This document shows, piece by piece, positions 24,814 through 44,967 of a stretch of DNA of 64,000 bases. A model generated the notes under the pieces. That model saw only the letters and a list, made by a program, of their open reading frames with translations, was not told the origin of the DNA and did no database searches. Source of the stretch: Sorangiineae bacterium NIC37A_2 (GTDB lineage: Bacteria; Myxococcota_A; Polyangia; Polyangiales; Polyangiaceae). Made by a program: the position numbers and the translations under genes. Location: assembly GCA_002085155.1 (NCBI GenBank), contig NASX01000019.1:1-64000 (forward strand). Reading direction: 5' to 3'. Position 1 is the stretch's first letter; every line of letters starts with the position of its first letter.

Positions 24814-26700
24814 ATGCGCGGACTCTCGACGAGGAACACCCCGAGCTACATCTTCGCCGGAGCTTGGCTGCTCGCGCTCTCCTGTTCGGGTTCCGCCGGT
24901 GCCCCAGCCGGCGACCCGGGTGAAGCGGGCGGGGGAGATGGCTCAGGCGGCGTCTTCGAGAGCACTGGTGGGACAGCCGCGGGTGGTGGTGATCCGGGGC
25001 CCACAGGCGGCATGGCGGACTCAGGGGGTACGTCCTCCTCAGGGGGAAATGGGGGCGCAGGAGCGGCCCCAGGAGGAGGCCCAAGCGGCTCAGGCGGAGA
25101 GAGCCCCGGCTCGGGGGGAGCGCCGCAAAATGACCTCTTCGATGAGCTGGTTCAAAGCTTCGACGCCTATTGGGACTTTGAAGAAGCGAACGGCGCCCAG
25201 GTGCCTCCCGTCGTCGGTTCCGCGCATCTTGAGCTCGAAGTGGGCACTCTCGATAGTGGTCCGACAGGCAAACAGCTCACACTTTCATCCGCTGGAACGG
25301 GGGCGAGCGCAGAGGGGCCCGTCGTCGACACCAGCGCAAGCTTTTCGATCGCTGCTTGGGTGAAGCTCGACGCGCTCGACGCCTTCAACACATTCGTGTC
25401 CATCAGCGGCACGGAGCTGAGCGCCGCTTATCTCCAGAAGCGCGATAGTGACCGGCTTGCCTTTGCTACCTTCCCTGAAGATTCAACCTCGAGCTCGCCT
25501 TGCGTCACCTCAGCGGAGATCAAGCCGCGATCAGGTGAGTGGTATCACGTCGCGGTCACTCGCGACGCGGCGACGCGCGCGCAGCGCATCTACGTCGACG
25601 GTGTCCTTTCTGGAAAGAGCACCTGCCCTGCTGGAGTCTTCGCAGCTCCGGGGCCTCTCCGGATCGGCAGTGGGCTCTGGGCCGCTGAACTTGCGGATTT
25701 CTCGAAAGGGGCCGTCGACGGCGTCGGCGTGACCAGCCGCGTGCTCTCGCCGTCCGATGTGCTGGTGCTCTACCGGGCGGGTCGCCCGGACGCGCGGCAT
25801 TATTTGTTCGCCTACTTCGTCGAAGTCACCCAAGGACGCGGCGACGGGCTCCGCCTCGCCCACAGCCATGATGGGCTCCATTTTGGCGCGATCGGAGGAG
25901 GAAAAGTCTTCATGCCCCCCTCAGTCGGAGGAGGTTCGTTTCGCGATCCCCACGTCATGCGCGATCCGGACGGGCTCTACCACCTCGTTTGGACCACCTC
26001 CTGCGTCCCTTGGGCAGAAGCGAACTGCGTCCAAGATCGCGGCTTTGGACACGCGAGCTCCCTCGACCTCGTCAACTGGAGTGCGGCCGATTACCTGACG
26101 ATCGATCTGAACGTCGAGCATGTGTGGGCACCGGAAACTTATTATGACGCGGAGACGAAGCAGTACATGGTCTTCTTCTCCTCGCCGATTGATAGTAACC
26201 CCCAAGCTGCCGACCCACACAGTCTCTACTATGTTCTGACGAGCGACTTCAAAACGCACACGGCGCCGGAGATCCTCTATTCTCAACCCGGCCGAAACTT
26301 CATCGACGGAACGATCCTGCGCCGCGGCGATGAGTTCCTCATGATCTTGAAGGACGAGGCGGACGGTCAAAAGAACTTGCGAGCGCTCAGCTCACCCAAG
26401 CTCGTCGGCGAAGGAGCTTGGCTCGGAGCTCCGTCTGCCCCCTTGACGGGAAATTACGCGGCCGAAGGCCCCTCGCTCATCGAACGCGACGGTGAACTGC
26501 TCATCTACTTCGACAAGTACGGCGAAGGCGCCTACGGCGCCCTGCGGGCCCGCACAGACGAAGACCCGCTCAGCCCAGCGAGCTGGGAAGATATCTCCGC
26601 GAGCGTCTTCTTCCCGGGCGTACGCCATGGGACCCCGATCGAGGTTCCGTGGAGCGTCTTCGAGAAGGTCGCTCTCGCGGCGGGTGAAACTGAGGACTGA
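24814..26700 (+). CDS. Secreted LamG and GH43-like glycosidase (lipoprotein)
   Basis: A 628-residue lipoprotein with lipobox LLALSCSGS. A Gly/Ser-rich linker extends to about residue 105. A LamG/concanavalin-like domain at about 110-315 carries SFSIAAWVKLDALDAFNTF and GEWYHVAVTRDA. Then comes a five-bladed propeller of the GH43-like clan, with FRDPHVMRDPDGLYHLVWT (Asp as probable general base), HVWAPETYYDAETKQYMVFF and NFIDGTILRRGDEFLMI. Family members are mostly arabinofuranosidases and xylosidases. The LamG part probably binds sugar. A pectate lyase gene converges on it, so a role in pectin side-chain breakdown is plausible. The exact substrate is uncertain. Confidence 0.78.
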   Translation: MRGLSTRNTPSYIFAGAWLLALSCSGSAGAPAGDPGEAGGGDGSGGVFESTGGTAAGGGDPGPTGGMADSGGTSSSGGNGGAGAAPGGGPSGSGGESPGSGGAPQNDLFDELVQSFDAYWDFEEANGAQVPPVVGSAHLELEVGTLDSGPTGKQLTLSSAGTGASAEGPVVDTSASFSIAAWVKLDALDAFNTFVSISGTELSAAYLQKRDSDRLAFATFPEDSTSSSPCVTSAEIKPRSGEWYHVAVTRDAATRAQRIYVDGVLSGKSTCPAGVFAAPGPLRIGSGLWAAELADFSKGAVDGVGVTSRVLSPSDVLVLYRAGRPDARHYLFAYFVEVTQGRGDGLRLAHSHDGLHFGAIGGGKVFMPPSVGGGSFRDPHVMRDPDGLYHLVWTTSCVPWAEANCVQDRGFGHASSLDLVNWSAADYLTIDLNVEHVWAPETYYDAETKQYMVFFSSPIDSNPQAADPHSLYYVLTSDFKTHTAPEILYSQPGRNFIDGTILRRGDEFLMILKDEADGQKNLRALSSPKLVGEGAWLGAPSAPLTGNYAAEGPSLIERDGELLIYFDKYGEGAYGALRARTDEDPLSPASWEDISASVFFPGVRHGTPIEVPWSVFEKVALAAGETED

Positions 26701-26760: not shown

Positions 26761-28128
26761 TCAGTCGCACTGATCCGGGCTCTCGAGCGTCGCACCCACC
26801 TTTGAGCTCACGAGCGCTTTGACCTCAGACGAAGGCACCAAACGATCTTGGTACTCGTAGGGCGGATTGAACGCGGTTCCGTAGCCTGTCGTATTACCGC
26901 TGGTGTTCTCGAAGATGTTGTTACCTTTGAGCTGGTGCGCCGAGCTTCCGCTCGCGTGGTTCGTGTAGATCGGGCTCTTGATGTCGATGAAGTGGTTCGC
27001 TTCCGTGAGCACGCGACAATCTTTGCCCGCCGAAATGCCGTAGTCGGAGACCTGGCCGTCGCGGGAGAAGAGATTGTTCACGATATGGATATCGCCGTAG
27101 CGACAGCGGGGCTGACGTTGAGCGACGCCGGTGAACCAGTTGAACATGAGCGTGATGTTCAGCTTTCCGACGCTCTCCGGTTCATTATCCGATGAGGCCA
27201 CCAGGTTCGAGAAGTTGTGCTCGCCGCCGGTGCGGTAGCCGAAGATGTTCCAGGTGAAAGTAACGTTGTCGGCACCTTTGACGACGTCGGCGTTTCCGTC
27301 CTGTCCGTCCCAGAACTCACAGTGATCGATCCAGACGTTCTTGGACGCCTCGATGTTCAAGTTGTCCCAGGCTTGATCTGAGTTCGAGCCAGGACCTTTG
27401 ATCACAATGTTGCGGATGATGACGTTACTGGAGCCTTTGATCAGGATCGGGGCTTTGAGCTGCGTCCCGGGACGCAACCCGACAATCGTCTTGTTTGAGC
27501 CCACCGTGAGCCGATCACCGGAGCGGCCATTCCAGCCCGCACCCAGATTGCCGTCGATGTGGATCACGCGTGGGGTGTCCCCCGCAGCGGCGTTCTGGAG
27601 GTCAGCAAAATTCTTCACGACAAGAGGCGCAGCCTTGCCGCCGCCGGTCAGTGCAAAGGGCGTATTCGTGCGACCGCTGCGCGTGGCCCAGCCCATCGGC
27701 GCACAGGTCGCCGGGGCTCCCCCCGTACCGCTCTCGGAGCCGCCGGACCCGCTCATCACCCCCCCGGCCCCACTGGTGTCCTCGCCACCCGTGCCTGCGC
27801 TCGTGCCCCCCGAATGCGCGCCCCCTGCGCTCGGAGCACCACCAGAAGCGTCGCTACCGCCTGAGGCGCCGCCTGCCGAGGCGCCCCCAGCCGGGCCCCC
27901 GCCAGAGGCATTCCCTCCCCCTGTCGAGGCACCACCGGTGCCTGGAAGAGAGCCGCCAGAACCGACCTGACTCCCACCCGCACTGACATCCCCGCCCGCA
28001 GCGTCCACGGGCGCACCGCCCACGCCCTCGCCATCCTCGCCCAGATCGCCACCTGCCTCCGAGCAGGCTCCACCGAACAGACCGAATGCGCACAGGAAAA
28101 GCGCAGAGCGAGAGGTTTTCGTCATCAT
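26761..28128 (-). CDS. Secreted pectate lyase, polysaccharide lyase family 1-like
   Basis: The start is set at ATG 28128, which has AGGA six bases upstream, giving about 455 residues; a longer frame to 28203 lacks a signal peptide. Lipoprotein signal ALFLCAFGLFGGAC, then a very long Gly/Ser/Ala linker (about 130 residues). The parallel beta-helix domain shows NTPFALTGGGKAAPLVVKN and VWIDHCEFWDGQDGNADV (Ca-binding region). The catalytic-Arg strand is NWFTGVAQRQPRCRYGDIHI. It cleaves de-esterified pectin by beta-elimination. The partner enzyme on the opposite strand (GH43-like) and the lipid anchor suggest surface-attached pectin degradation. A very secure family call. Confidence 0.9.
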   Translation of the reverse strand: MMTKTSRSALFLCAFGLFGGACSEAGGDLGEDGEGVGGAPVDAAGGDVSAGGSQVGSGGSLPGTGGASTGGGNASGGGPAGGASAGGASGGSDASGGAPSAGGAHSGGTSAGTGGEDTSGAGGVMSGSGGSESGTGGAPATCAPMGWATRSGRTNTPFALTGGGKAAPLVVKNFADLQNAAAGDTPRVIHIDGNLGAGWNGRSGDRLTVGSNKTIVGLRPGTQLKAPILIKGSSNVIIRNIVIKGPGSNSDQAWDNLNIEASKNVWIDHCEFWDGQDGNADVVKGADNVTFTWNIFGYRTGGEHNFSNLVASSDNEPESVGKLNITLMFNWFTGVAQRQPRCRYGDIHIVNNLFSRDGQVSDYGISAGKDCRVLTEANHFIDIKSPIYTNHASGSSAHQLKGNNIFENTSGNTTGYGTAFNPPYEYQDRLVPSSEVKALVSSKVGATLESPDQCD

Positions 28129-28212
28129 AGCGTGTCCTACCCCGCTTTCATGCGGCGAGATGCCGAATCGATCCAGAAATCTGGACCGTGCTCGCGGCAG
28201 CACGAGCCGAGG

Positions 28213-30047: not shown

Positions 30048-33000
30048 TCACTGAGCCGAGACGACGACCGGCTGCCAGTTGCTGCCGTTCGTGGTCGCGC
30101 AGAAGCCGACGACCGTTGAGGCGTTCGGTCCCAGGACCGAGTTCCAGCTCATCGGAGTGACGGTCTTCTGCGCGCCATTGCCCACGTAGTTCGCGCTCCA
30201 GCCGTTATTCATGGTGGATTGATTCAGGTTCAGAACCACGGTCCAGGACGAAACGGTCGTCGACGAGGTGTTGCGGATCGTGAGATCGACGCAATAGCCA
30301 CCGCCCCACGTTGACTGGTAGCTAAGCTGCGCGGTCACCTTGCTCGCCGGCGCCGCTCCGCAGCGGCCACCCGTGCATACGCCGCTCTGGCAGTCATTTC
30401 CGCCGCCGCACATCTTGTTCAAGCTGCACTTGCCGCACACACCGCCACAATCGACGTCCGTCTCGTTCTGATTCCGGATGCTGTCCGTGCACGTCGGCGC
30501 CGCGCCGCAGCGGCCACCCGTGCATACGCCGCTCTGGCAGTCATTTCCGCCGCCGCACATCTTGTTCAAGCTGCACTTGCCGCACACGCCACCACAATCG
30601 ACGTCCGTCTCGTTCTGATTCCGGATGCCGTCCGTGCACGTCGGCGCCGCTACGCAGACGCCCCCCACGCATACGCCGCTCGCGCAATCCGAGGGACCGC
30701 CGCAAGAACCACCGTTCGGACATGCAGGGCACACGCCGCCACAATCGACGTCCGTCTCGTTCTGATTCCGGATGCCGTCCGTGCACGTCGGCGCCGCTAC
30801 GCAGACGTACCCGCTGCAAACGCCGCTCGCGCAGTCCGAGTGACCATCACACGAGCTGCCGTTCGGACAACCGGGACACACGCCACCACAATCGATATCC
30901 GTCTCGTCCTGGTTCAGGGTGTCATCTTCACAGGTCGGAACCGCTGCGCAGACCCCCGATTCGCAAAGTGCGCTCAGACAATCCGCGGCGAACTGGCAAT
31001 CTCGACCACCGTCACAGGAGGGGCAGCCTCCGCCGCAATCGACGTCCGTCTCACTGCCGTTGTGCACTCCGTCTTCGCAGCTCGGCTGAGGTACGCACAA
31101 TCCGTCAACGCAAAGACCACTGCCACAATCGAGCGCCTCACGGCACTCCGCGCCGTCCACGCAGGGAGGACAAGCGCCGCCGCAGTCGACGTCGGTTTCG
31201 CTGTCGTTCTTGATGCCGTCGCCACAACCTCGCTTCGGGAAGCCCTCTTCTCGCGCGTCGATCTGGCGGACGTAAGCGGCCAAATCAGAGAGCTCCTCGG
31301 GCTCAAGATTGAGGCCCGAGTGGGCGCTGATGGCTTCTTCGATGGTCGAAGCAGAGCCGTCGTGGAGGTAGGGAGCCGTCCTCCACACGCCGCGAAGCGG
31401 CGGAACATCAATGCCCAAGAGAGGCCCATACAGGCGCTGCCCGCTCGACTCTTTGAGCGTCCCGATGTCCTTCGGCTCAAGGGAAGACTCGTTCGCGAAG
31501 GTGGAACCGTAGTGACATGAGGTGCACCCGACCTCGACGAAGAGGTCACGGCCGCGCAGCCCCGCGGCGGTGAGCGAAGCTCCGCGCTCGGGACTCGGTG
31601 GCGTCGCCTTGAGCGAGTTCACATAGGCCGCAAGGGCGTCCAGCTCTCCGCTCAAACCAGCCTTCGGAGAGCCGAGCGGCTCGCTCACGCTCCCGCTCAG
31701 GAAGACCGCGTCCGAGAGGAGGCCGGTCCCTCCCGCCAGACCTCGGATCTGAGCCTCGAAATCCTGCACTTCGTCGAAGTTTCCGCTCCAGTGCAGGAGG
31801 CGCGCAGCGCTGCCGGATCCGACCAGGCTGATCGTGTTGCGAAGACCCTCACCCTGTCCGGTCAAGTCCCAGACGCGTCCATCCTGTTCCCCTTCGGCGT
31901 GGCAGCTGGCGCAGCTCATGTAGCCATCTCGAGCGAGACGGGTGTCGAAGGCGTCGTAGAAGAGCTGTTTTCCAAGGAGGAGCTCGGCGGAAAGAGGTTC
32001 GTTCGTCGCCGTCGTCACCGTCGTGACGGGCGTCATGGTGAACGTTCCGTAACGAACGAGCGGCGAGAGATCGAAGATGCTCAGGCTCCGGTCCATAAAG
32101 TTCTGGACGAAAAGCCGTGTCCCATCCTCAGAAACGGTCAGACTCTGGGGCGCCCGCCCCACACGCACCCGGAACAGCTCGCTGCCGAGCACAGGATTGA
32201 GCACGGCGACCTCACGACTCGTTTCCAGGGCCGAAAACAGGTACGCGCCGCTCGGGTGGAACGCGACCGCCGAGACGAGACCGGCGTTGTCGACGTCGAC
32301 CCGGTCCCCGAGCTCCTCCGTCTCGGTCTGGAGGTCGATCCGCGAGACAATCGCGCGCACCGTGTTCTGGAAGTCGAGATTTTGACCGTCTCGAGCCAGT
32401 CCTCGCGCAATGTTGTCCTGCTTCGAGGGAACCCAGAGGGACGCACCATCGGGCGACACCACGGGAGCACCGAGATAGTTCGGCAGGCCTCGTCCGCTCA
32501 CGGACGTATCTGCGACGTCGCTATGAGCAAGGGTGAGCGTCCGCGAGCCTGAGAGGCCCGGCACGTCAAAGGCGCGCACCTCAGCGCGTCCCGCTGCGGT
32601 CAAAGGCGAAACGGTCGCCTCCCCCGGAACCGGCGGGCTCATGAAACGGGATACGAAGAGGCGGCCGCCGTCGCTCGTGATGCCGATGCCGCGGGGAAGC
32701 GGGCCCGCGTCTCGGGTGGTGAGCACTGCGCCCGTCGCGCCATTGAGCTCGAGCACCTCACCGGTTCCCTCAAGACTCACATAGGCGAGCCCCGTCTCTG
32801 GCGCGAACACGAGACCGTAAGGCCGCGAGCCTTCTTTCAACGAGATCGTCTGCTCTACCGAGAGAGAGCTCGGATGAATCATAGAGATCTGAGCCGCGTC
32901 GCGGGACGTCACCCAAATCCTGCCATTCGGAGCGACGGCAACGGAGCGCGGCGCCTTCCCCACGGCGATCTCCGCGATCCGGGTCCCGTTCGTCGCGTCG

Positions 33001-35588
33001 ATCACACCGACCGAGTCGTGATCGGGATGAACGACCCAAACTCGAGCGGGAGAGGTCGTCAGGGCCAACTGCGACGAGCTCCGGGCGAGGCCCGCCAGAG
33101 GCTCGGCTCTGACGGCTTGGGCGAAAGAGCGGCTGACCTGTCGCCCGTCGCTCATCCGAACGGTGAGAGTGACGAGATAGATGCCCGGGCTCGAATAGAC
33201 GTGCGTCGCGCTCGGAGTGGTCCGCTCCGCCTCTGCACCAGCTCCATCTCCGAAGTCCCAGATGTAGCGGGCGCCAGGGACGGAAAGCGCAGGCGCGTAA
33301 CTTGCGGTTGCGCCGACGGCGACGATGGGCGCTTCGATCGCGGGGATCGTCGGAAGCGGGGCTTTTCGCAGCGTGAACGTGGCGTCCGCGGCGAAGGTCC
33401 CACCGGAGGTCACCGGATCGATCCAGAGCTCGTAGTTTCGGTGACGGATCACGCGATCTGGGAAGTTCTTGGAGCGGAAGGTGAATCCGGTTCCGGTCAG
33501 GCCAGGCTCGACGCAGAAGGTCGCATCGCTCTTAAAGAGGGCGCTGCCGTCGTTCGGATCGATGCGAAGCCGATAGCTATAGTGCCGGAGCCAGCGTCCC
33601 GGCTGAGCCACGGACTCAAAGGAGACGCAGCTCGAATCAGCGAGGCCATCGCGCGCGATGAACTTGGCCGTGAGGAGATCGGCCTCGCTCGGGTTCTCCC
33701 CGAGGTTCTTCAAAATTCCGAGCGATTGAGCGTTCGTCGCCCAGGCGGAATGGGCCACGTTGACGCTCATGAGCGTGAGGTCACTCCCCTTCGGCAGCAC
33801 CGTCTGGACGGGAGGAGCCGGCAGGGATTCACCGACCGCTACGATGACTCCCTTCGAAGGAACGCCCTGTGCGTCGAGGGCAAACACCAGATAGTAGCCG
33901 GGAGGAGCGACGTTCCGATCCTCGGGGATGCGCGCGCCGATGCGACTTCCGACCTGAATGAAGGGCAGCTCGATTCGCCTCTGCGACGTATTAAAAGAGT
34001 GCGTCACGCTGCTCGCTCCGACGAGGACGACGCGAGAGATCGTTTGGCTTGCGGCGAGCTCGAGCTCGAGCGTCTCCCCATACTTGGGCGCGAGCGAGCT
34101 TACGGCGACCGCACGCGGCCTCGGCGCAAGTTCAGCCCCGCCATTTTGGGTCGCGCGGAACAAGTAGGGCGGGTAATAGACCTCGGCGTTCAGGTTGTTG
34201 ACCGGGCCCGGCGCGCCTCCGCCGGTGGAGAGAACCGTCCCATTCGGGAGCAAGATCGCAGCCGAGTGGTACACGCGCACAACAGCCGCGCTCGCCCCCA
34301 GCGTCCAGGTTCCCGTCTCCGGATCCCAGATTTCAGCCGCGTAGACCGCGTCGGAGCCGCCATTGTTCCCGTAGCGGGTGCCGCCTGTGACGACGACGCG
34401 CCCATCGGGGAGCACCGTCAAGCTCGGCCACTGACGGCCGTGGGCCATCGGGCTCGTTTCACTGACCACCGGCGAACCACTGTTGATGTCGATGACGGTT
34501 GCGTAGGGGCTACCTGGGAGGTTGTGCCCGTCGTAGTAGCCGTTGCCGCCCACCTGCAGGATGCGCCCGGGGGCGAACATGGCCGCGGCGCTGGTCGGTC
34601 CAATGTTGGGTCTCGTGGTGGCGCTCGCGGGCGTCTTGAAGTTCCCGGCGACGCGGATCGAGCCGTTCCCCTGGGGGTTCAGGTACCACATCTTCTCCGA
34701 GGAGATACCAAAGACCTCACCGTTCGGAGCGACCCAGGCTCGGGGGTACCAATAGCGATGATAGTCGGGGCCAAACGCGTCGCGGCTCGTCGCGCCAAAC
34801 AGACTCCGGAAGCCGGTGCCCGGCTCATAGACCTCGGGAACCATCGAGACCTGGCCTGCATTGATGGCGGAGGCGGGGTCCTCGAACGCGCGCAGCGCGG
34901 CGTAGGGCCCCGAACCACCGAGCATGATGAAGCGACCATCCGCCAGGGTGATCAAAGACCCGTACCAGCGGTCGCTCGCCATCCGGAACGGCGACTTAGT
35001 GACGACGCCTGTTGTCGGGGAGAGCAGGCTGCTTTCGCGGGGCGAGTTCCCACCAGAGATGAACAGCGAGCCGTCTCCCAGGAACGCGGCGCTGCTACAG
35101 AAGCTGTTCACGCGCTGCGCCTCGTAGGTGGTCGTGTGGCTCGCGGTCGAAAACCCGAGGGTCGGGTTCCAGATGTCCATGGTGCGACCATCTTGGTTCG
35201 CAGGCTGACCCGAGGGAGTCCCGTAGGTCACGACGCGACCGTTCGGGAGCAAGGTCGAGTGGAGACCATTGAGCGGCCAGCTATGCACCGGCGACCACAT
35301 ACCGCGCGTCGGCGCGGTCGCCGGGGGCACAAGACCGCTCAACATCGGATCGGGTTCGTCGGGCAGCTCGATCGCAAGCGGCACACTGAGGTCAGAAACC
35401 GAGAGCGGACGCGTCTCTTCGCGCGCCGGCTCGTCGAGCTCCTGGGCTACCTGATCCGGATCGCCAGAAGCACAACCGAGCTCGAGTGCACCGGCCAGGC
35501 AGACCAGCGCAAGTTGGACACCTGAGGCTCGGCGGAAGAGCGAACGAACAAGAGAAGGCGCGGAGGAGCGAACTTTCGGAGCGGTCAT
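30048..35588 (-). CDS. Multidomain copper radical oxidase / di-haem cytochrome / CBM lipoprotein
   Basis: About 1,846 residues from ATG 35588; a GTG three codons earlier (35597, overlapping the upstream stop) is the alternative, and residue numbers here count from it. Lipobox ends at Cys42. Residues 95-480 are a kelch propeller of the galactose/glyoxal oxidase type; 485-600 a DUF1929-like Ig domain. The Cu and radical residues are all present: Cys167 (NSFCSS), Tyr212 (DRWYGS), Tyr443-His444 (RVYHSA) and His533 (THSFNT). No Trp equivalent to galactose oxidase Trp290 is evident. Then an AbfB-like domain (645-745), PKD (755-830), YVTN/YncE-like propeller (840-1190), a di-haem peroxidase-like part with CASCH at 1229 and CTSCH at 1358, six Cys-rich repeats (1458-1751) and a CBM2-like end. 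A Sco gene directly precedes it. Oxidation of a carbohydrate alcohol with haem as acceptor is inference. Confidence 0.88.
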   Translation of the reverse strand: MTAPKVRSSAPSLVRSLFRRASGVQLALVCLAGALELGCASGDPDQVAQELDEPAREETRPLSVSDLSVPLAIELPDEPDPMLSGLVPPATAPTRGMWSPVHSWPLNGLHSTLLPNGRVVTYGTPSGQPANQDGRTMDIWNPTLGFSTASHTTTYEAQRVNSFCSSAAFLGDGSLFISGGNSPRESSLLSPTTGVVTKSPFRMASDRWYGSLITLADGRFIMLGGSGPYAALRAFEDPASAINAGQVSMVPEVYEPGTGFRSLFGATSRDAFGPDYHRYWYPRAWVAPNGEVFGISSEKMWYLNPQGNGSIRVAGNFKTPASATTRPNIGPTSAAAMFAPGRILQVGGNGYYDGHNLPGSPYATVIDINSGSPVVSETSPMAHGRQWPSLTVLPDGRVVVTGGTRYGNNGGSDAVYAAEIWDPETGTWTLGASAAVVRVYHSAAILLPNGTVLSTGGGAPGPVNNLNAEVYYPPYLFRATQNGGAELAPRPRAVAVSSLAPKYGETLELELAASQTISRVVLVGASSVTHSFNTSQRRIELPFIQVGSRIGARIPEDRNVAPPGYYLVFALDAQGVPSKGVIVAVGESLPAPPVQTVLPKGSDLTLMSVNVAHSAWATNAQSLGILKNLGENPSEADLLTAKFIARDGLADSSCVSFESVAQPGRWLRHYSYRLRIDPNDGSALFKSDATFCVEPGLTGTGFTFRSKNFPDRVIRHRNYELWIDPVTSGGTFAADATFTLRKAPLPTIPAIEAPIVAVGATASYAPALSVPGARYIWDFGDGAGAEAERTTPSATHVYSSPGIYLVTLTVRMSDGRQVSRSFAQAVRAEPLAGLARSSSQLALTTSPARVWVVHPDHDSVGVIDATNGTRIAEIAVGKAPRSVAVAPNGRIWVTSRDAAQISMIHPSSLSVEQTISLKEGSRPYGLVFAPETGLAYVSLEGTGEVLELNGATGAVLTTRDAGPLPRGIGITSDGGRLFVSRFMSPPVPGEATVSPLTAAGRAEVRAFDVPGLSGSRTLTLAHSDVADTSVSGRGLPNYLGAPVVSPDGASLWVPSKQDNIARGLARDGQNLDFQNTVRAIVSRIDLQTETEELGDRVDVDNAGLVSAVAFHPSGAYLFSALETSREVAVLNPVLGSELFRVRVGRAPQSLTVSEDGTRLFVQNFMDRSLSIFDLSPLVRYGTFTMTPVTTVTTATNEPLSAELLLGKQLFYDAFDTRLARDGYMSCASCHAEGEQDGRVWDLTGQGEGLRNTISLVGSGSAARLLHWSGNFDEVQDFEAQIRGLAGGTGLLSDAVFLSGSVSEPLGSPKAGLSGELDALAAYVNSLKATPPSPERGASLTAAGLRGRDLFVEVGCTSCHYGSTFANESSLEPKDIGTLKESSGQRLYGPLLGIDVPPLRGVWRTAPYLHDGSASTIEEAISAHSGLNLEPEELSDLAAYVRQIDAREEGFPKRGCGDGIKNDSETDVDCGGACPPCVDGAECREALDCGSGLCVDGLCVPQPSCEDGVHNGSETDVDCGGGCPSCDGGRDCQFAADCLSALCESGVCAAVPTCEDDTLNQDETDIDCGGVCPGCPNGSSCDGHSDCASGVCSGYVCVAAPTCTDGIRNQNETDVDCGGVCPACPNGGSCGGPSDCASGVCVGGVCVAAPTCTDGIRNQNETDVDCGGVCGKCSLNKMCGGGNDCQSGVCTGGRCGAAPTCTDSIRNQNETDVDCGGVCGKCSLNKMCGGGNDCQSGVCTGGRCGAAPASKVTAQLSYQSTWGGGYCVDLTIRNTSSTTVSSWTVVLNLNQSTMNNGWSANYVGNGAQKTVTPMSWNSVLGPNASTVVGFCATTNGSNWQPVVVSAQ
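30345..31226 (-). repeat. Six tandem 147-bp Cys-rich repeat units
   Basis: Six in-frame copies encode 49-residue units with the pattern C-x-D-x3-N-x2-ETD-x-DCGG-x-C-x2-C and later C-x4-DC-x-SG-x-C. The two C-terminal units (30345-30638) are almost identical at DNA level; the others diverge with distance. This indicates recent tandem duplication. The repeats join the di-haem module to the CBM2-like end and are probably disulphide-linked stalks. Confidence 0.9.
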
Positions 35589-35593
35589 TTCTT

Positions 35594-36247
35594 TCACTGT
35601 TGAGTCCCGGATGAGGCCAAGGTGATGGAGTTTTCGACACGAGCGAGCGCGGCGATCTCAGACGCAAGGTACGCGGCGTCGATGTCGGCGGCGCTGTAGC
35701 GTTGAAGAGGGCGCCCAGCGGCGTCGAAGAGATAGATGGTCAAGCTGTGAGCGGTAGGAACGCGAGGAGCTCCTGGCTCGAAGACTGTGAGTCGTGCAGC
35801 GAGCGCGTCGAGAGCGCCCGTGCCAGGCCGGAGAAAGCGCCAGGCCGGATCGGCGATGCCCTCACGATCCGCAAATGCTCGAAGCTGGCTCGCCGTGTCG
35901 TTCTCCGGGTCGACGGTGATCGAAACGACCGCGACTCTCTCTCGGAGCTGGGGCGAGAGTTCTTGTCGTGTCTGCTTGAGGAGCCCGGCCACTCTTGGAC
36001 ACGCCACCGGACAGCTCGTGAACATGAAATGAAGGAGGAAGGGACGCCCGGCGAGAGAACTCGCAGAGAATTCAGCCCCCTCTTGGTCCGTCCACTCGAG
36101 CCCACTCAGGACCTCCGGGCCGCCGCTCACTGACTTTTCACGGCAGCCGGCGAGCAGCGCGAGGCTACAAAGGAGCACCCCTGTCCAACGGAACCGCCGT
36201 AAGCTGGCGACCGAAGCGTCCCGACATGTCGCTGGACGGAAGAGCAT
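35594..36247 (-). CDS. Sco1/SenC-type copper chaperone lipoprotein
   Basis: About 217 residues from ATG 36247 (a GTG at 36256 is possible). N-terminal hydrophobic segment GVLLCSLALLAGC gives a lipobox. The thioredoxin-like domain has the Sco copper motif MFTSCPVACPRVAGLL (CxxxC) and the distal His in PTAHSLTIYLFDAAG; segment VVSITVDPENDTASQLRAF is also typical. It delivers copper, usually to cytochrome oxidase CuA. No cox genes are near; instead the stop codon overlaps the start region of the large galactose-oxidase-type gene, so a role in loading that copper site is suggested. Envelope-located. Confidence 0.92.
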   Translation of the reverse strand: MLFRPATCRDASVASLRRFRWTGVLLCSLALLAGCREKSVSGGPEVLSGLEWTDQEGAEFSASSLAGRPFLLHFMFTSCPVACPRVAGLLKQTRQELSPQLRERVAVVSITVDPENDTASQLRAFADREGIADPAWRFLRPGTGALDALAARLTVFEPGAPRVPTAHSLTIYLFDAAGRPLQRYSAADIDAAYLASEIAALARVENSITLASSGTQQ

Positions 36248-36478
36248 TCCCCACACTTACCAGATGACCATCGGAGCGAGAAGATGGAAAAAACTCGCGC
36301 GGGTCCAAACTTCCGCCGGCAAAAGAAAACGGTTCCATCAGCGCCGCTCCGCCGCTCCGAGGGAAGATTCGTCGGTCCCGCTCCGGATTCACTGAGTTGG
36401 GCTGGTTCAAGCGCGCGCGCGGCCGCGCAGCGGGCGACCTCGATCCGCCCGCCCGGCGGGCCAGCTGCCGAGTTGAGC

Positions 36479-37168
36479 TCAGCTCCGCGCATAATGGATC
36501 ACGTCCATGAGGCGAGCCTCCCGCGATCCCCGGTTTTCGTAAGAGTGCTTCTGGTCAGCGCGGAAGAACACAGAATCCCCCGTCTGCAGGTCGCAGACCG
36601 TATCCCCCACGGTCAAACGCACAGTTCCGACCAAAACAATCACCGTCTCCGCCGTCCCCCGCGCATGAGGATCGCTCTCGTGGAGAGCCTTCGGCAAGAG
36701 GCGCAGCTCATACACCTCCGTCGTGGTGGCAGAGCCTCCCGGAGAGAGGAGGCGACTCTCCGTGCGCCCGTCGGTGCTGCGCAGAGGCAGCGCGTCTCCA
36801 GCTCGGAGCACGAGAACAGAGCTGTCGGAGTCCGTGGCCAAGAGATCGTGGAACGGAATCTCGAGCCCCACGGCGATCTTCCAAAGAACGGCGAGCGTCG
36901 GGTTCGTCCGAGCTCCCTCGATCTGGGAAAGGGCCGCCCGGCTCACCCCGCTGCGCGCCGAAAGATCGTCGAGAGAGAGGCCCCGCTCGTGACGGTATTT
37001 GCGGAGCGCCTCAGCCACCCGTCGGGCTAGCTCAGCCGCACCAAGCTCATCGCCGACCTCGGAGCTCGCCCGAGGGCGGCCTTGCCGCTTCTTTTCAGCA
37101 TCCTCCGCGGCGGGGGTGCGCTTGGCTTTCTGGAGATCTTTGGGGGAAGCCTTACTGGCGCGGGCCAT
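36479..37168 (-). CDS. XRE-family regulator with C-terminal cupin domain
   Basis: The start is ATG 37168 with AGGG seven bases upstream; about 229 residues. A very basic N-terminus (ASKASPKDLQKAKR) precedes the helix-turn-helix at about residues 55-110 (LSARSGVSRAALSQIEG). The C-terminal cupin at about 140-229 has SDPHARGTAETVIVLVGTVR and FRADQKHSYENRG, which should bind a small effector. This is the PuuR/SutR-like architecture, commonly controlling metabolism or sugar-acid genes. The target is not known. The next coding region in the opposite direction begins 890 bases away, and a 19-base palindrome lies in that gap. Another candidate target is the neighbouring Sco/oxidase operon on the same strand. 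Confidence 0.9.
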   Translation of the reverse strand: MARASKASPKDLQKAKRTPAAEDAEKKRQGRPRASSEVGDELGAAELARRVAEALRKYRHERGLSLDDLSARSGVSRAALSQIEGARTNPTLAVLWKIAVGLEIPFHDLLATDSDSSVLVLRAGDALPLRSTDGRTESRLLSPGGSATTTEVYELRLLPKALHESDPHARGTAETVIVLVGTVRLTVGDTVCDLQTGDSVFFRADQKHSYENRGSREARLMDVIHYARS

Positions 37169-38059
37169 CGGGACCCTAGCTATCACGCCCATGGACCGAA
37201 CTCCACGGAAACGGACAAGGCCGCTCGAGGGGCCCGACGGGAGCGTTTCTTGGGTTCGGGACGGCGTTTTTTGGCCCCGGTCCATCACCTCCCCCTGAGC
37301 CCGACCGAGCCCTCGTCTGAACGCGTCGCCTCTTTGGGGCGCGGTCGGCGCTCCCCTCTCCCCCGTGACCTCTTCTCACCTGGCCGCAGCCTCCAGCAAG
37401 AAAGACGCGCACAGGCTCGCGCGGACCACCAGCGAGAACCTGTCACGGGCAAGGGGTGACTTCCGTGCCTTTTCACGGCCCTGCCGTTACCCACGCTGGC
37501 CCACGACACTCATCACGTCCGCCCTAACACGCCCCAGCTCAGACGCGCGATTTCCAGATCAGTTCGCGCGCATTTCACGGCATTTTCCCCGGAAAAGAAG
37601 CCAATAAATCACTTGTGAGCATTCAGAGAGTCTCCCATACTCCCGCTCATGATTCGTTCACACGTAAGGAATCGTCCTCCCGAAAGCGGAGAGAAAGGCG
37701 AACGTCGTCGACGTTCGTGACGTGTGAAAATGGCCGCAACATCCGCGATTCATCCGCTGCCTCGCACCAGGCGAGGCCGAAGCCGACTCGAAAGCGCGCC
37801 GCATTTTGCGCGCGCAGGGCGGATTGTCCTCGGTCCAGCCTCGCTTGCGAGAAGAAAATCAAAAAGAGCCTCGTCCATCTTGCAAGACATGCAGTCTCGT
37901 ATTATGAACGGGACATGGAGTGCTGTCGCTGTCGTCACATGGTCCCAAGGGGCCCCCGTCGAGCGCGATAGACCATTTTTTCAAGGATATTCGTGCTCGC
38001 CCGGCCTTCCGGGTTCGACCACGAATCCGGGCCGGGTGAGCCGAGAGGAGGAACACCCG
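37169..38059. other. Long intergenic region between the XRE regulator and the DUF2325 gene
   Basis: No frame here has a credible start, SD and codon pattern; all long frames are Ser/Arg-rich out-of-phase artefacts. It contains a 19-base palindrome (37699-37717). An A/T-richer stretch at 37850-37990 probably contains the promoter of the plus-strand gene. Confidence 0.55.
37699..37717. promoter_or_regulatory. Perfect 19-bp palindrome
   Basis: CGAACGTCG-T-CGACGTTCG has perfect 9-base arms around one central base. It lies 340 bases before the DUF2325 gene and 531 bases from the XRE start. Such symmetry is unlikely by chance in a 890-base gap and fits a LexA/XRE-like or TetR-like operator; the binding protein is unknown. 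Confidence 0.5.
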
Positions 38060-40461: not shown

Positions 40462-42750
40462 TCAATCCCGGAGCGCGGCGAGCCGCGCTCGCGCCTCTTC
40501 GGCGCGCGGAGTTGTCTTGTCTGGCAAGAGCCCCATCAGCGCTCCCAGGGCGCTCTGATCGTTCGGATGCTCCTTGAGCACCCCCTCGAGGACCCTGATC
40601 GCCTCCTGTCGCTTCCCCTGACCACTTAGCGCTACAGCATAGACATAGCCAAAGCGAGCATCGTTCGGGGCAGCGCGCACCGCTTTCTCGAGGCTCTCGA
40701 GGGCGGCTGTCCCCTGACCATTGCGCACCTGCCAAAGGCCGAGGGCGTGCGCGGCCGAGGCGCTCGATGGATTGCATTTGAGCGCTTCGTGGAGAGCAGC
40801 TCCAGAAGCCGCCTCGTTCTTCCGCTGCCGCTCCAGCTCCGCCAGGTTGAGGTAGGCTTCGGTCAAGCAAGGTTCGATGCGAAGCGCTATCTCGAGCGCT
40901 CGCCGGGCCTCGTCGAACCTTCCGCGAGCAAGCTCAAAGGCGCTCCTCTCCACGTGCGTCTCGGCGCGGGAGCTGCTCACGTGGAAGGCCTCCTCGACCT
41001 CATGGAAGGCCTCCTCCAGCGCTCTCCTTTCGTCCTTTGGAAGTCGAGCGAGCGGCACGCTGGCGAGGGCCTTTCCGATCGCTACACGTGACGCTCGCTC
41101 CGCCCTCTTCAGAATCGGCAAGAGCAGCTGAGCCCGTTCGGTCAAAGGCAGCTGAGCTGCCCCGAGGACGGCACCGTAGGTCAAGAGAGGTCGCCCTCGA
41201 CCGAGGACTTGGCGGAAGGTTTGAGTGGTCTTTTCGGAGGGATATCGCCCGAGCCGCTCGAGAGCCGTCGCGCGCACAATCTCGGGAGAGCCCTCGTCGA
41301 GCGCCAAGGCGCGAAGAGCCTTCGGAGCTTCCACGGCTCCCTGCGCATGCAGAAGGAGCGCTTCCGTCGCCTGCTTCCGAGCGCGCAAGCCGGGATAAAA
41401 GGACAGCGCGCGGTCCCGAGCCCAGGTCGCGCTCTCTTTCGTGTGGCAACCGTTGCAGGCGTTCGGGGTCCCAAAGCTCACGCTCAGATCGGGACGGGGG
41501 ATCCGGATCGAATGATCGCGTCGCTCGTCCACCTGCATGAAGGTGGCAGGGGGCATGTGGCAGTCGATGCAGGCGGGAGCATTCTTACCTTGATGGTGCG
41601 AGTGCTGCGGCGCATCGAAGCGCTCAGCGTCGTGGCAGCTCACGCACAGGGAGTTCCCCTCGGCGCGGGTCTTTCCTGAGTGTGGTTCGTGGCAATCGGA
41701 GCAACGCACGCCCGCTTGGTACATGCGGCTCTGAAGGAACGAGCCCCACTCGTAGACCTCGCCCCGCACCTGACCGTCGCCGTGGTAGTGGGGAGGAGTG
41801 AGAAGCTCGGGGGAGAAGAAGTCGAGGAACGCCTCGTGAGCGAAAAATGCCTCCTGAATCGGCTCGCGCAAACTGTGACAAGGAGCGCAGGTGTTGACCT
41901 CAACGCCGTCTTGTTTGTGGGGTGAGGGACTGCCGCTCTCCGCGCGCACCCATGGCTCGGAACGCTGGAGGGAGACCGCGAATGCTACCGGAGCTTTCCC
42001 TGGATTGTCCCGAGCGCTCTTGACGTGCTCGGCGCCGGGCCCGTGACACGCCTCACATCCGACGGAGAGCTCGGACCACTTTGTGTCGAAACGATCGGCG
42101 TCCACGTCGTAGCGCCGCTCGACGAACATCGAGTGACAATCGGCACACATGTGGTTCCAGTTCTGAGCAGGCGCCGTGAAGAAGAGCCGATCACCGGGGG
42201 CGATGCCCTCGGGACCATACAAGTGAAACCAACGTTTTCCGTCCTGGGTCTCCGCTCTCTCGTCCCAGGCGACACCGAAGGACTGGAGCTTCCCGCGCCC
42301 AGCATCAACGACGTACTGCTTCAAGGGCCAAACGCCCGAGACATAAGGCACAGCAAAGGAACTCGCTGAGCCATCCGCCCCAGGTCCGCTCACGCGCGGT
42401 GAGCCTTCCTCCTGGAGGAACTGGGTCGCACCGCCATGTTTCGTCGTAAAAGAACTGCCATCAAAACGAGCGTCCACTTCGGCCCGCTCGGGCACCGCGA
42501 GCGCAAGCGCGTGATGAGATGATGTGTAGGCTTTGGCCTGCTCTTCGTGACAAAGGGTGCAGCTCGCTGAACCGACGAACTGAGCGCGCCGCGCCTCAGA
42601 GGGGCTCAAGGCTAAAGACGTCGGTTCGGAGCTTTCAGCGCGGGGCGCGATCTCAGGCTCGCTCTCCCGATGACCGCGCGAGGCGAAAAAGATCACGAGC
42701 GCGGCCACAGAGATCCCGCCCAGCCCAATCTTCCAACTTCGAAGCTGCAT
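40462..42750 (-). CDS. Octahaem c-type cytochrome with HEAT/TPR C-terminal half
   Basis: A 762-residue protein with an N-terminal signal-anchor (IGLGGISVAALVIFFAS). Eight CxxCH motifs lie between residues 64 and about 430: CTLCH, CADCH, CEACH, CAPCH, CSDCH, CVSCH, CIDCH and CNGCH. Extra His clusters (NWNHM, HYHGDG, HSHHQGKNAP) may be distal ligands. The C-terminal 300 residues have a HEAT-like part (LALDEGSPEIVRATALERLG) and TPRs (EPCLTEAYLNLAELERQRKN, ALGLWQVRNGQGTAALESLE). It should be an exported electron-transfer protein or reductase. Hydroxylamine/nitrite/tetrathionate-type multihaem enzymes are relatives, but the activity is not assignable. Confidence 0.93.
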   Translation of the reverse strand: MQLRSWKIGLGGISVAALVIFFASRGHRESEPEIAPRAESSEPTSLALSPSEARRAQFVGSASCTLCHEEQAKAYTSSHHALALAVPERAEVDARFDGSSFTTKHGGATQFLQEEGSPRVSGPGADGSASSFAVPYVSGVWPLKQYVVDAGRGKLQSFGVAWDERAETQDGKRWFHLYGPEGIAPGDRLFFTAPAQNWNHMCADCHSMFVERRYDVDADRFDTKWSELSVGCEACHGPGAEHVKSARDNPGKAPVAFAVSLQRSEPWVRAESGSPSPHKQDGVEVNTCAPCHSLREPIQEAFFAHEAFLDFFSPELLTPPHYHGDGQVRGEVYEWGSFLQSRMYQAGVRCSDCHEPHSGKTRAEGNSLCVSCHDAERFDAPQHSHHQGKNAPACIDCHMPPATFMQVDERRDHSIRIPRPDLSVSFGTPNACNGCHTKESATWARDRALSFYPGLRARKQATEALLLHAQGAVEAPKALRALALDEGSPEIVRATALERLGRYPSEKTTQTFRQVLGRGRPLLTYGAVLGAAQLPLTERAQLLLPILKRAERASRVAIGKALASVPLARLPKDERRALEEAFHEVEEAFHVSSSRAETHVERSAFELARGRFDEARRALEIALRIEPCLTEAYLNLAELERQRKNEAASGAALHEALKCNPSSASAAHALGLWQVRNGQGTAALESLEKAVRAAPNDARFGYVYAVALSGQGKRQEAIRVLEGVLKEHPNDQSALGALMGLLPDKTTPRAEEARARLAALRD

Positions 42751-42820: not shown

Positions 42821-44890
42821 TTACGGGAAGTAGGCGGGCGTCTGCTCCCGGAGGACGGCGATCTCCGCCTCCAAGGTCGCTCGGACCGCCGTGTGCGCCG
42901 GACTGTTGTGGAGGTTCGTCGTCTCGAGAGGATCAGCCACGAGATCGTAGAGCTCGCGCTGGTTCACGTTTGAGATCAGCTTGAAACGCTTGTCCTTCAC
43001 GGCGTAACGGCGCTGGGTCGTTCCGCTGGAGACTTCGCTGAAGGAGTGAGTTCGACCGTTCTTTGCGGTCTCATCCGAGAGCAGCGGCTTGATGCTGTAG
43101 CTGTGGTTCACCTGGCTCACCGGGACCCCCGCGAGATCCAAGACGGTAGCGTAGATGTCCGTGGAGACGAACAGGTCATCTTCACGTCCACGTCGCGTCA
43201 CACCAGCGCCCGCTACGATGAGCGGAGCTCGCACGCCACCTTCGTAGACGCTGCCCTTTGCGCCGCGGAGAGCGGCATTGCCGTCCTTGATGGGCGGCGG
43301 GGTACCGTTGTCGCCGAGCACGATGACGACGGTCTTCTCGAGGTCCACCTCAGCCAAGAGACGTCCGATCTCGGTGTCGAGGGCCTGGATGTTGGCCTGA
43401 TAGACCGGGATGTTGGTGTGGTAGGTGCCGGGCTCCGGATTTCCGACCGAGCTCAGGTCCACCGAGTGCAGCTCGCGGGGCGGAACCTGGTAGGGGTTGT
43501 TTCCGCCGCCGGCAGCGTGGGGAGCATTGTAGGCTTGGTAGATGAACCAGGGCTCGTTCGGCTTCGTGGCCTCGTGCTCGCGGATGAACTCGATCGCGTA
43601 GTCCGTGAGCGCCGTCGTGGCGTAGGTCGTGTTCGGGAGCGACGGCCCGTTGATGTCGAAGGTCGTCCAGTTGAAGTAGTCGGTCAGGCCGCCGCCGAGG
43701 ATGCCGCGGAAGCGCTTGATGCCGATATCTCGCGCATGCTGCAGGATGCCGTCGACGCCGGGGAAGCTCCCGCCGGGTCGGGGATCGATGCTGCCGCCGC
43801 CGAGATGGTACTTGCCGAAGAGCGCGTGCTCATAGGTCGGGGCCTCTTCGTTCAAGCGATCGAAGAGCGTGACCGTCGAGGTCGGCAGGACGTTTCCGAC
43901 GTTCGTGACGCCGGTCCGGTGGCCGTAGAGACCGCTCACGACGGTGCCACGGGTCGGCGAGCAAACGGGGCTCGCCCACGCGTCGTCGAAGATCAGGCCA
44001 TCTTGAGCCAAAGCTTCGATGTTCGGGACGTCCACTGCGCTGCCGTTGCCGACGAGATCGGGATACAGAGCCGTCGCGTCGGCGCCCCAGTCGTCGATGA
44101 AAAGGAACAGGATGTTCGGCCGTTCGGGCGCTTCGGGCGCGGGCTGCTCCTCGTCCTCTTCCTCGCGAACGAAGGTCACCGTCGTTGTCACGCTCGAGGT
44201 CGAGTCGCCGTCGGAGACTGTGAGCTTGACCGCGGCGGTGCCCGGCGAATTGCTGGTGAGCTTTGCGGTCGGGGAGAGCGGATCGTCGATCACACCCTCG
44301 GTCGTCGACCAATAGTAGGTCAGCGCCGACGGACCAGCGTCCGGATCGCGCACCGTCGTCTTCAAGGTCACCTCACTGCCGACGTAGACCTTCTGGGGCG
44401 TGACGGTGAGCTCATCGACCACCGGAGCCACGTTCAGGGTACCAGTCACGCTCACGCTGCCGTTTCCGCTGGCCGAGGTTCCGCGCAGGCTGATCGTCAC
44501 CGCCGTCGTCCTGCCCGCGGTGACGTTGAAGGTCGCGGAGCCGGTAAACTCCGTGTTCCCTTCCGCCGAGCTGGCGGTGAGCACGATGGTGTAGCCGTTT
44601 CCAGCCGGAATTCCGCCGATCGTTCCACTGATGACAGGGGCGCCGCTCGTGTCGATCGTGCCCGTCTTGGTGAAGCCGTTGCCAGAAATCTCATAGCGGA
44701 CGGAGTTCAGCGTCACTCCCGGCGCTACCTTCAGCTCAAGCCCGAGAGAACCAACCTCCTCGACCTCCCCTTCTGAGACCGGATCTCCGACGCAACCCGC
44801 GAGGCTCGCGCTCGCCAGAATCGCCGCCGCGCACACGAGTGAGATCCCGCCTGCGCGAAGCCCTAGTGACCCCATTTCCTTCTTTTTCAT
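42821..44890 (-). CDS. Secreted sulfatase with N-terminal Ig/PKD-like domains
   Basis: The start is ATG 44890 with SD AAAGGTGA; about 689 residues. Lipobox ASASLAGCVG, then two beta-sandwich domains (to about residue 250, including TVTPQKVYVGSEVTLKTTVR). The alkaline-phosphatase-like sulfatase domain begins RPNILFLFIDDWGADATAL, with metal-binding DD. The formylglycine site is ASPVCSPTRGTVVSGLYG (CxPxR). KTVVIVLGDNGTPPPIKDGN supplies another metal ligand pair. Cys conversion would need a formylglycine-generating enzyme, which is not in this window. The substrate is likely a sulphated polysaccharide or aryl sulphate; unknown. Confidence 0.93.
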   Translation of the reverse strand: MKKKEMGSLGLRAGGISLVCAAAILASASLAGCVGDPVSEGEVEEVGSLGLELKVAPGVTLNSVRYEISGNGFTKTGTIDTSGAPVISGTIGGIPAGNGYTIVLTASSAEGNTEFTGSATFNVTAGRTTAVTISLRGTSASGNGSVSVTGTLNVAPVVDELTVTPQKVYVGSEVTLKTTVRDPDAGPSALTYYWSTTEGVIDDPLSPTAKLTSNSPGTAAVKLTVSDGDSTSSVTTTVTFVREEEDEEQPAPEAPERPNILFLFIDDWGADATALYPDLVGNGSAVDVPNIEALAQDGLIFDDAWASPVCSPTRGTVVSGLYGHRTGVTNVGNVLPTSTVTLFDRLNEEAPTYEHALFGKYHLGGGSIDPRPGGSFPGVDGILQHARDIGIKRFRGILGGGLTDYFNWTTFDINGPSLPNTTYATTALTDYAIEFIREHEATKPNEPWFIYQAYNAPHAAGGGNNPYQVPPRELHSVDLSSVGNPEPGTYHTNIPVYQANIQALDTEIGRLLAEVDLEKTVVIVLGDNGTPPPIKDGNAALRGAKGSVYEGGVRAPLIVAGAGVTRRGREDDLFVSTDIYATVLDLAGVPVSQVNHSYSIKPLLSDETAKNGRTHSFSEVSSGTTQRRYAVKDKRFKLISNVNQRELYDLVADPLETTNLHNSPAHTAVRATLEAEIAVLREQTPAYFP

Positions 44891-44967
44891 CGAATTCACC
44901 TTTCGTTTCTTTCGTGGAGTGGCTCCGGCGAAATCCTCGGGTAGCTCCGGACCCGTCGCTTCCTGCG

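Follow-up and report, generated by a model that had tools for sequence, protein, structure and literature searches.

A 64,000-nucleotide stretch of Sorangiineae bacterium NIC37A_2 (contig NASX01000019.1 of assembly GCA_002085155.1, positions 1 to 64,000), here termed the window, encodes a giant secreted copper-radical oxidase fused to a di-haem module (30048-35597, minus strand). Next to it lies a gene for a copper chaperone of the Sco family. Taken as a whole, the locus is best explained as a secreted oxidase that would be loaded with copper by Sco and wired through its own haems to cytochrome c, a reading to which we assign a probability of roughly 0.45. The parts are known and the combination is new; no description of this exact fusion turned up in the literature searched.

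In the proposed mechanism, the neighbouring Sco lipoprotein would deliver copper to the oxidase site, where a thioether between Cys167 and Tyr212 would then form. The carbohydrate-binding modules CBM42 and CBM2 would dock the enzyme on plant polysaccharide, and the substrate of the copper site would be an aldehyde or primary alcohol, probably one carried by a glycan. The electrons may then travel, at least partly, by way of haem I and haem II, the latter predicted to be bis-His, to a c-type cytochrome, and not all to O2. A built-in haem domain beside a sugar-oxidising site is also a feature of cellobiose dehydrogenase, a cytochrome-fused dehydrogenase that differs in its flavin site and in its unrelated folds.

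The fused gene, its copper site and its family

The fused protein is read from a single uninterrupted open reading frame of 1849 codons from a GTG start, or 1846 from an ATG three codons downstream, and was delineated with Pfam, NCBIfam, a PDB sequence search and orthologues. The original prediction, made from the sequence alone, had described one frame of about 1,846 codons, a count that corresponds to the ATG start, and all of the domains that it listed were borne out, the AbfB, PKD, YVTN, di-haem and CBM2 parts by Pfam or NCBIfam matches. The N-terminus is signal-like, with no clean lipobox. It is followed by a galactose-oxidase-type (AA5) Kelch propeller and GO-like E-set at residues 95-590 (33828-35315; all features of the fused gene are on the minus strand), which contain matches to Glyoxal_oxid_N (PF07250, residues 138-230), Kelch (PF13964, 390-436) and GO-like_E_set (PF09118, 493-588, 1.3e-21) and align with PDB galactose oxidase. 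Next come an AbfB/CBM42 carbohydrate-binding module (residues 611-742, 33372-33767; PF05270, 4.3e-39) and a PKD domain (750-823, 33129-33350; PF18911, PF00801). The redox module proper consists of a seven-bladed YVTN propeller resembling hydrazine synthase beta (about 840-1190, 32028-33080; TIGR02276 of NCBIfam and the model of a relative) and a di-haem domain of the hydrazine synthase gamma, cytochrome c peroxidase (CcP) and MauG fold (about 1195-1455, 31233-32015), recognised by a model of the window domain and by matches to CCP_MauG (PF03150, 1205-1279) and RoxA-like_Cyt-c (PF21419, 1399-1423). The protein ends in Cys-rich repeats, seen in the translation and variable among relatives (1460-1750, 30348-31220), and a CBM2 cellulose-binding-type module (1755-1845, 30063-30335; PF00553, 1.3e-14). 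The protein may be surface-tethered, as the original prediction proposed; its carbohydrate-binding modules point to probable polysaccharide binding. Promoter and terminator scans returned nothing above chance.

The oxidase part has both the Kelch propeller plus E-set fold and the Cys/Tyr/Tyr/His/His ligand set of the AA5 family, and residues 98-586 align with galactose oxidase at E=2e-46 in the PDB sequence search. Cys167 (35097-35099) is the expected partner in the Tyr-Cys thioether (Cys228 of galactose oxidase), and Tyr212 (34962-34964), within an RWYGS motif, is the predicted radical tyrosine (Tyr272). The putative copper ligands are Tyr443 and His444 (34266-34271; Tyr495 and His496) and His533 (33999-34001; His581). 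These are exactly the five residues named in the original prediction, and each is invariant in 49/49 aligned sequences. None of the five was among the patterns used to search for relatives; the HWSGNFDE motif was such a pattern, and its invariance among relatives is partly circular. The RWY around the radical tyrosine is as in the glyoxal-oxidase-like members of the family.

Structural modelling agrees with the alignment. A compact relative (L173; 1199 residues, from the oxidase through the di-haem end) was modelled with a predicted local distance difference test (pLDDT) score of 85.1 and a predicted template-modelling score (pTM) of 0.75. Its oxidase part matches the galactose oxidase of P. 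siccitolerans (9g43, Z-score (Z) 53.5), galactose oxidase 1gof (Z 51.4, root-mean-square deviation (rmsd) 1.8 over 463 residues) and the GlxA fold (Z 44.6). The invariance of the ligands and the match of the relative's predicted fold to galactose oxidase indicate that the set is probably assembled in one site. The window protein shares its fold and its five copper and radical ligands with the AA5 oxidases (1gof, 9g43 and the glyoxal oxidases), but is only about 30-38% identical to them, carries the fused di-haem module and has no equivalent of Trp290, the stacking residue of galactose oxidase, with Gly230 at the aligned place. The copper site therefore looks functional on sequence and model, with a second sphere different from that of galactose oxidase.

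The fusion recurs well beyond this organism, and 84 dereplicated fused loci were looked at across relatives. With one genome scanned per species, at least 570 candidate stretches were confirmed; among the best 80, which were analysed, nearly all carry the fusion in one frame, and they come from Burkholderiales, other Proteobacteria (including Gammaproteobacteria), Verrucomicrobia, Chloroflexi and one planctomycete. The same architecture is found in four genomes of the same family (L020, L021, L022 and L023, one of them in the same genus; about 50-71% identity by domain), and the fusion also occurs in more distant Myxococcota families (L024, L025, L066, L068, L069). An assembly chimera, a frameshift fusion and chance were rejected as sources of the frame because the same architecture stands in independent genomes. 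Across at least four phyla the domain order is constant, running from oxidase through optional carbohydrate-binding modules to PKD, propeller and di-haem domain, and the binding modules themselves vary (AbfB, CBM2, CBM60, F5/8 type C, NPCBM, PA14 and laminin-G). The fusion is thus a widespread family hidden under generic annotation; a complete plasmid record labels its copy merely a "discoidin domain-containing protein". A paper reportedly deals with a Burkholderia AA5 enzyme that is joined to a CE3 domain.

Probable copper supply by Sco and possible other partners

The gene upstream of the oxidase (35594-36256, minus strand) encodes a lipoprotein-type SCO1/SenC copper chaperone (PF02630, 64.7 bits against a cut-off of 22.8; PDB Sco, E=1.4e-11). 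It has the C82xxxC86 motif and distal His (H170) of Sco proteins, and a lipobox, LLAGC38. Its position immediately upstream of the oxidase had been predicted correctly. The overlap of stop and start that was predicted with it (GTGA) holds only if the oxidase starts at GTG; a start at ATG leaves a short gap.

Pairing of Sco with the oxidase recurs among relatives. Sco occupies the same place in all three same-family relatives with enough upstream sequence. Flanks of 1.5 kb or more on each side are available for 62 dereplicated fused loci, and in 31 of these Sco is a neighbour, upstream in 10 and downstream in 21 and always on the strand of the fused gene. This adjacency is far above chance, because Sco genes are few: the organism's own 5.0 Mb genome contains just three. 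The two proteins also appear to have diverged together: pairwise distances of Sco and of the oxidase domain correlate at r 0.89, a value matched in 0/5000 permutations and higher than that for oxidase and fused haem module (r 0.49), although shared ancestry is contained in both figures. Moreover, the window Sco scores higher against oxidase-linked Scos of Burkholderiales (up to 114 bits) than against the two others of its own genome (62 and 35 bits). In another genome of the same family (L026; 13.6 Mb, one contig), Sco and oxidase are naturally fused, a single frame (L026:9916-12927, minus strand) joining a lipoprotein-type Sco (residues 31-196) to a galactose oxidase domain (215-1001), in which a block of repeats appears to be inserted into the Kelch propeller.

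There is a precedent for this division of labour. Maturation of GlxA in Streptomyces requires both Sco and the haem peroxidase DtpA when copper is low, and sco-oxidase gene neighbourhoods in Frankia and Burkholderia have already been noted (PMC4736821). The role inferred here for Sco is partly anticipated by that work. Both systems would involve a radical copper oxidase, Sco and a haem protein; however, the Streptomyces parts are separate genes, the haem protein there is a DyP peroxidase, and the window protein scores 142.7 bits against the cut-off of 800 for the GlxA equivalog NF052501. Given the same-strand neighbours, the L026 fusion, the co-divergence and the GlxA precedent, the proposal that Sco loads the oxidase site, already made in the original prediction, appears well supported by comparative sequence evidence and analogy.

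Some relatives have another partner. In 9 of the fully flanked loci that lack Sco, a MauG/MbnH-family di-haem enzyme is immediately adjacent to the fused gene, whereas among the Sco loci such an enzyme occurs in a single one, 2 kb away and on the other strand. In three Verrucomicrobia copies this MauG-type enzyme is fused to MbnP (PF20243, 1e-28 to 1e-32), which is a copper-associated protein, and in other Sco-less loci it comes with a weak YtkA-like match. We infer that a MauG/MbnP-type neighbour may be an alternative copper or activation partner. The pair is absent from the window, and where it occurs in several Sco-less relatives it is a neighbour rather than part of the fused protein. Fusions of MbnP with MauG (MbnH) beside Sco-less fused oxidases lie at L154:6161-7945, L165:6230-7984 and L178:5279-8011, and suggest a copper role for MbnP/MbnH outside methanobactin operons. 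At a further locus (L065:4432-7950, plus strand), MbnP, with three matched stretches, is fused to an MbnH-family enzyme and is convergent with a stand-alone copper-radical oxidase.

The di-haem module and the fate of the electrons

Both CxxCH motifs of the original prediction are present and invariant, CASCH (residues 1229-1233, 31899-31913) for haem I and CTSCH (1358-1362, 31512-31526) for haem II. His1426 (31320-31322), the expected distal ligand of haem II, aligns with the corresponding Met of bacterial CcP or with the residue beside it. Because a His is found there in 48/49 sequences, haem II is expected to be bis-His, like the gamma-II haem of hydrazine synthase. For the gamma-II haem, electron exchange with a partner cytochrome c has been proposed (PMC12607021).

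The structural models, too, resemble hydrazine synthase. The propeller of the L173 model best matches hydrazine synthase beta (5c2v_B, Z 36.1, rmsd 2.0 over 301), and the window's di-haem domain, modelled alone (pLDDT 84.3, pTM 0.83), best matches hydrazine synthase gamma (5c2v_C, Z 17.5, rmsd 2.9 over 210, 30% identity), with cytochrome c peroxidases (Z 16.1) and MauG (Z 15.2) close behind. A propeller and a di-haem fold in series, the propeller seven-bladed and the di-haem domain CcP-like, are common to the window protein, the beta and gamma subunits of hydrazine synthase and the fused HzsBC of Scalindua. The window protein also differs from hydrazine synthase: no alpha subunit was seen near the window gene, Cys165 and Asp168 of the gamma site were not seen in the alignment with the window domain, and the NCBIfam score is 52.4 bits against a hydrazine synthase family cut-off of 1250. 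In NCBIfam, the whole protein likewise stays far under the cut-offs for hydrazine synthase, MauG and MbnH. A 2025 study found proteins distantly related to the fused beta-gamma unit to be highly prevalent in environmental bacteria (PMC12758564).

A candidate electron carrier is encoded beside many of the fused genes. In 20 loci, a gene for a small monohaem c-type cytochrome is the immediate neighbour of Sco and the fused gene, and all three share a strand; the complete plasmid record has the same order of fused oxidase, small cytochrome c and Sco. Members of this cytochrome family (L109:4536-5090 and 19 other loci) carry C-x-N-C-H and RRGGPPSRYD...MPRY motifs; the plasmid example is annotated "hypothetical". 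The presence of this cytochrome, together with a hydrazine-synthase-type module and its expected bis-His haem, makes electron flow to the fused haems more likely. The acceptor role of these haems, as judged from sequence and models, is a good and plausible hypothesis that stops a little short of even odds.

A cytochrome c beside the fused gene fits electron exchange with the di-haem domain but does not reveal its direction, which could be outward or into a peroxidase. In the latter case, the oxidase would make H2O2 from O2, and the fused di-haem peroxidase would remove or use it with electrons from the small cytochrome. The two c-type haem sites in a CcP/MauG fold and the cytochrome neighbour in the 20 loci suit such peroxide handling, and in Streptomyces DtpA probably clears the H2O2 that GlxA produces (PMC4736821). 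However, hydrazine synthase gamma is a closer match to the domain than any peroxidase is, if by a small margin over CcP, and stand-alone copies of the module occur without an oxidase. Its haem II has His1426 aligned where CcP has Met and MauG has Tyr, and the acidic residue of the NPxEM motif of bacterial CcP is replaced by a G-rich segment in the sequence alignment. At the aligned position of the catalytic Glu in the haem I distal pocket of CcP there is no Glu, with invariant E1276 and E1281 nearby (by alignment only). The hydrazine-synthase-like module type and the absence of the catalytic Glu from the alignment speak for the outward direction, as far as alignment and models can indicate it, and peroxide handling, the strongest of the rivals, is unlikely.

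The module may also be only loosely linked to its oxidase. PKD, YVTN and di-haem parts would then form a generic redox or protein-contact module, fused for location or regulation and with no electron exchange. The organism's own genome encodes two stand-alone PKD-YVTN-di-haem proteins (contigs C60:5933-8476 and C72:4260-6827, both plus strand; L190 and L191), each directly downstream of an LVIVD-repeat/Big_5 protein, apparently a second deployment of this redox module. Because they keep 103 of the 115 invariant haem-module positions in the absence of an oxidase, the module by its sequence has a general job independent of the oxidase. In addition, distances of haem module and oxidase correlate at only r 0.49 although the two share a polypeptide, a sign of partly independent divergence. 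On the other hand, four phyla or more retain the fusion in its fixed order, and conservation is higher in the haem module than in the oxidase (mean column identity 61% versus 44%); for these reasons joint work of oxidase and module is suggested and a loose linkage appears rather improbable.

Least probable is radical activation of the copper-radical oxidase by the fused module: a paired haem peroxidase activates fungal alcohol oxidases by one-electron oxidation (PMC9770985), GlxA maturation requires DtpA (PMC4736821) and a MauG/MbnH-family enzyme adjoins the fused gene in Sco-less loci, but a bis-His haem II predicts a low potential unsuited to tyrosine oxidation, and the likelier agent in Sco-less loci is the separate, canonical MauG-type protein. 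The fungal tandem resembles the window protein in that a copper-radical oxidase works with a haem enzyme, yet it consists of two proteins, uses a class II peroxidase and lacks both cytochrome c and Sco (PMC9770985).

Several points weigh against a Sco-loaded oxidase wired to cytochrome c. To our knowledge, all characterised copper-radical oxidases use O2, and the observations would be explained equally by peroxide removal or by radical activation. The positions retained by the stand-alone modules leave no oxidase-specific interface visible, and the module's divergence from the oxidase is, as described, partly independent. For the whole L173 relative, the model reaches a pTM of only 0.75. In 22/62 loci, neither Sco nor a MauG-type enzyme neighbours the fused gene. 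Finally, the window has no small cytochrome gene next to Sco, of the kind that many relatives encode between oxidase and Sco, so that an electron carrier encoded elsewhere would be needed here.

Genomic setting and meaning for the family

Two further genes for carbohydrate-active proteins lie 2-5 kb from the oxidase, one for a GH43-like enzyme with a laminin-G domain (24814-26700, plus strand) and one for a pectate lyase (26761-28203, minus strand). Together with CBM42, they hint that the setting is one of pectin or arabinan. The gene next upstream of Sco, 222 bases away and likewise on the minus strand, encodes an XRE-cupin regulator (36479-37288). A multihaem c-type cytochrome with TPR repeats (40462-42750, minus strand) is encoded about 4 kb upstream of Sco, and a sulfatase with a PKD domain at 42821-44899 (minus strand).

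As a more tentative proposal, the fused proteins may constitute an unnamed, widespread class of copper-radical dehydrogenases, in which a galactose-oxidase-type site is wired through the hydrazine-synthase-like di-haem module to the cytochrome c pool. Copper would come from a dedicated Sco or, in other lineages, perhaps from a partner of the MbnP/MauG type. The family provides a genomic case, extending across its members, for Sco as the copper supplier of copper-radical oxidases, and suggests MbnP/MauG-type proteins as an alternative partner of the fused enzymes. The prevalent relatives of hydrazine synthase beta and gamma (PMC12758564) gain a concrete partner enzyme. Copper-radical oxidases are known for spending their electrons on O2; because a large, conserved family of them carries a fused di-haem module, with many of its members in an operon with cytochrome c and Sco, the feeding of a respiratory chain by a copper-radical site becomes directly testable.

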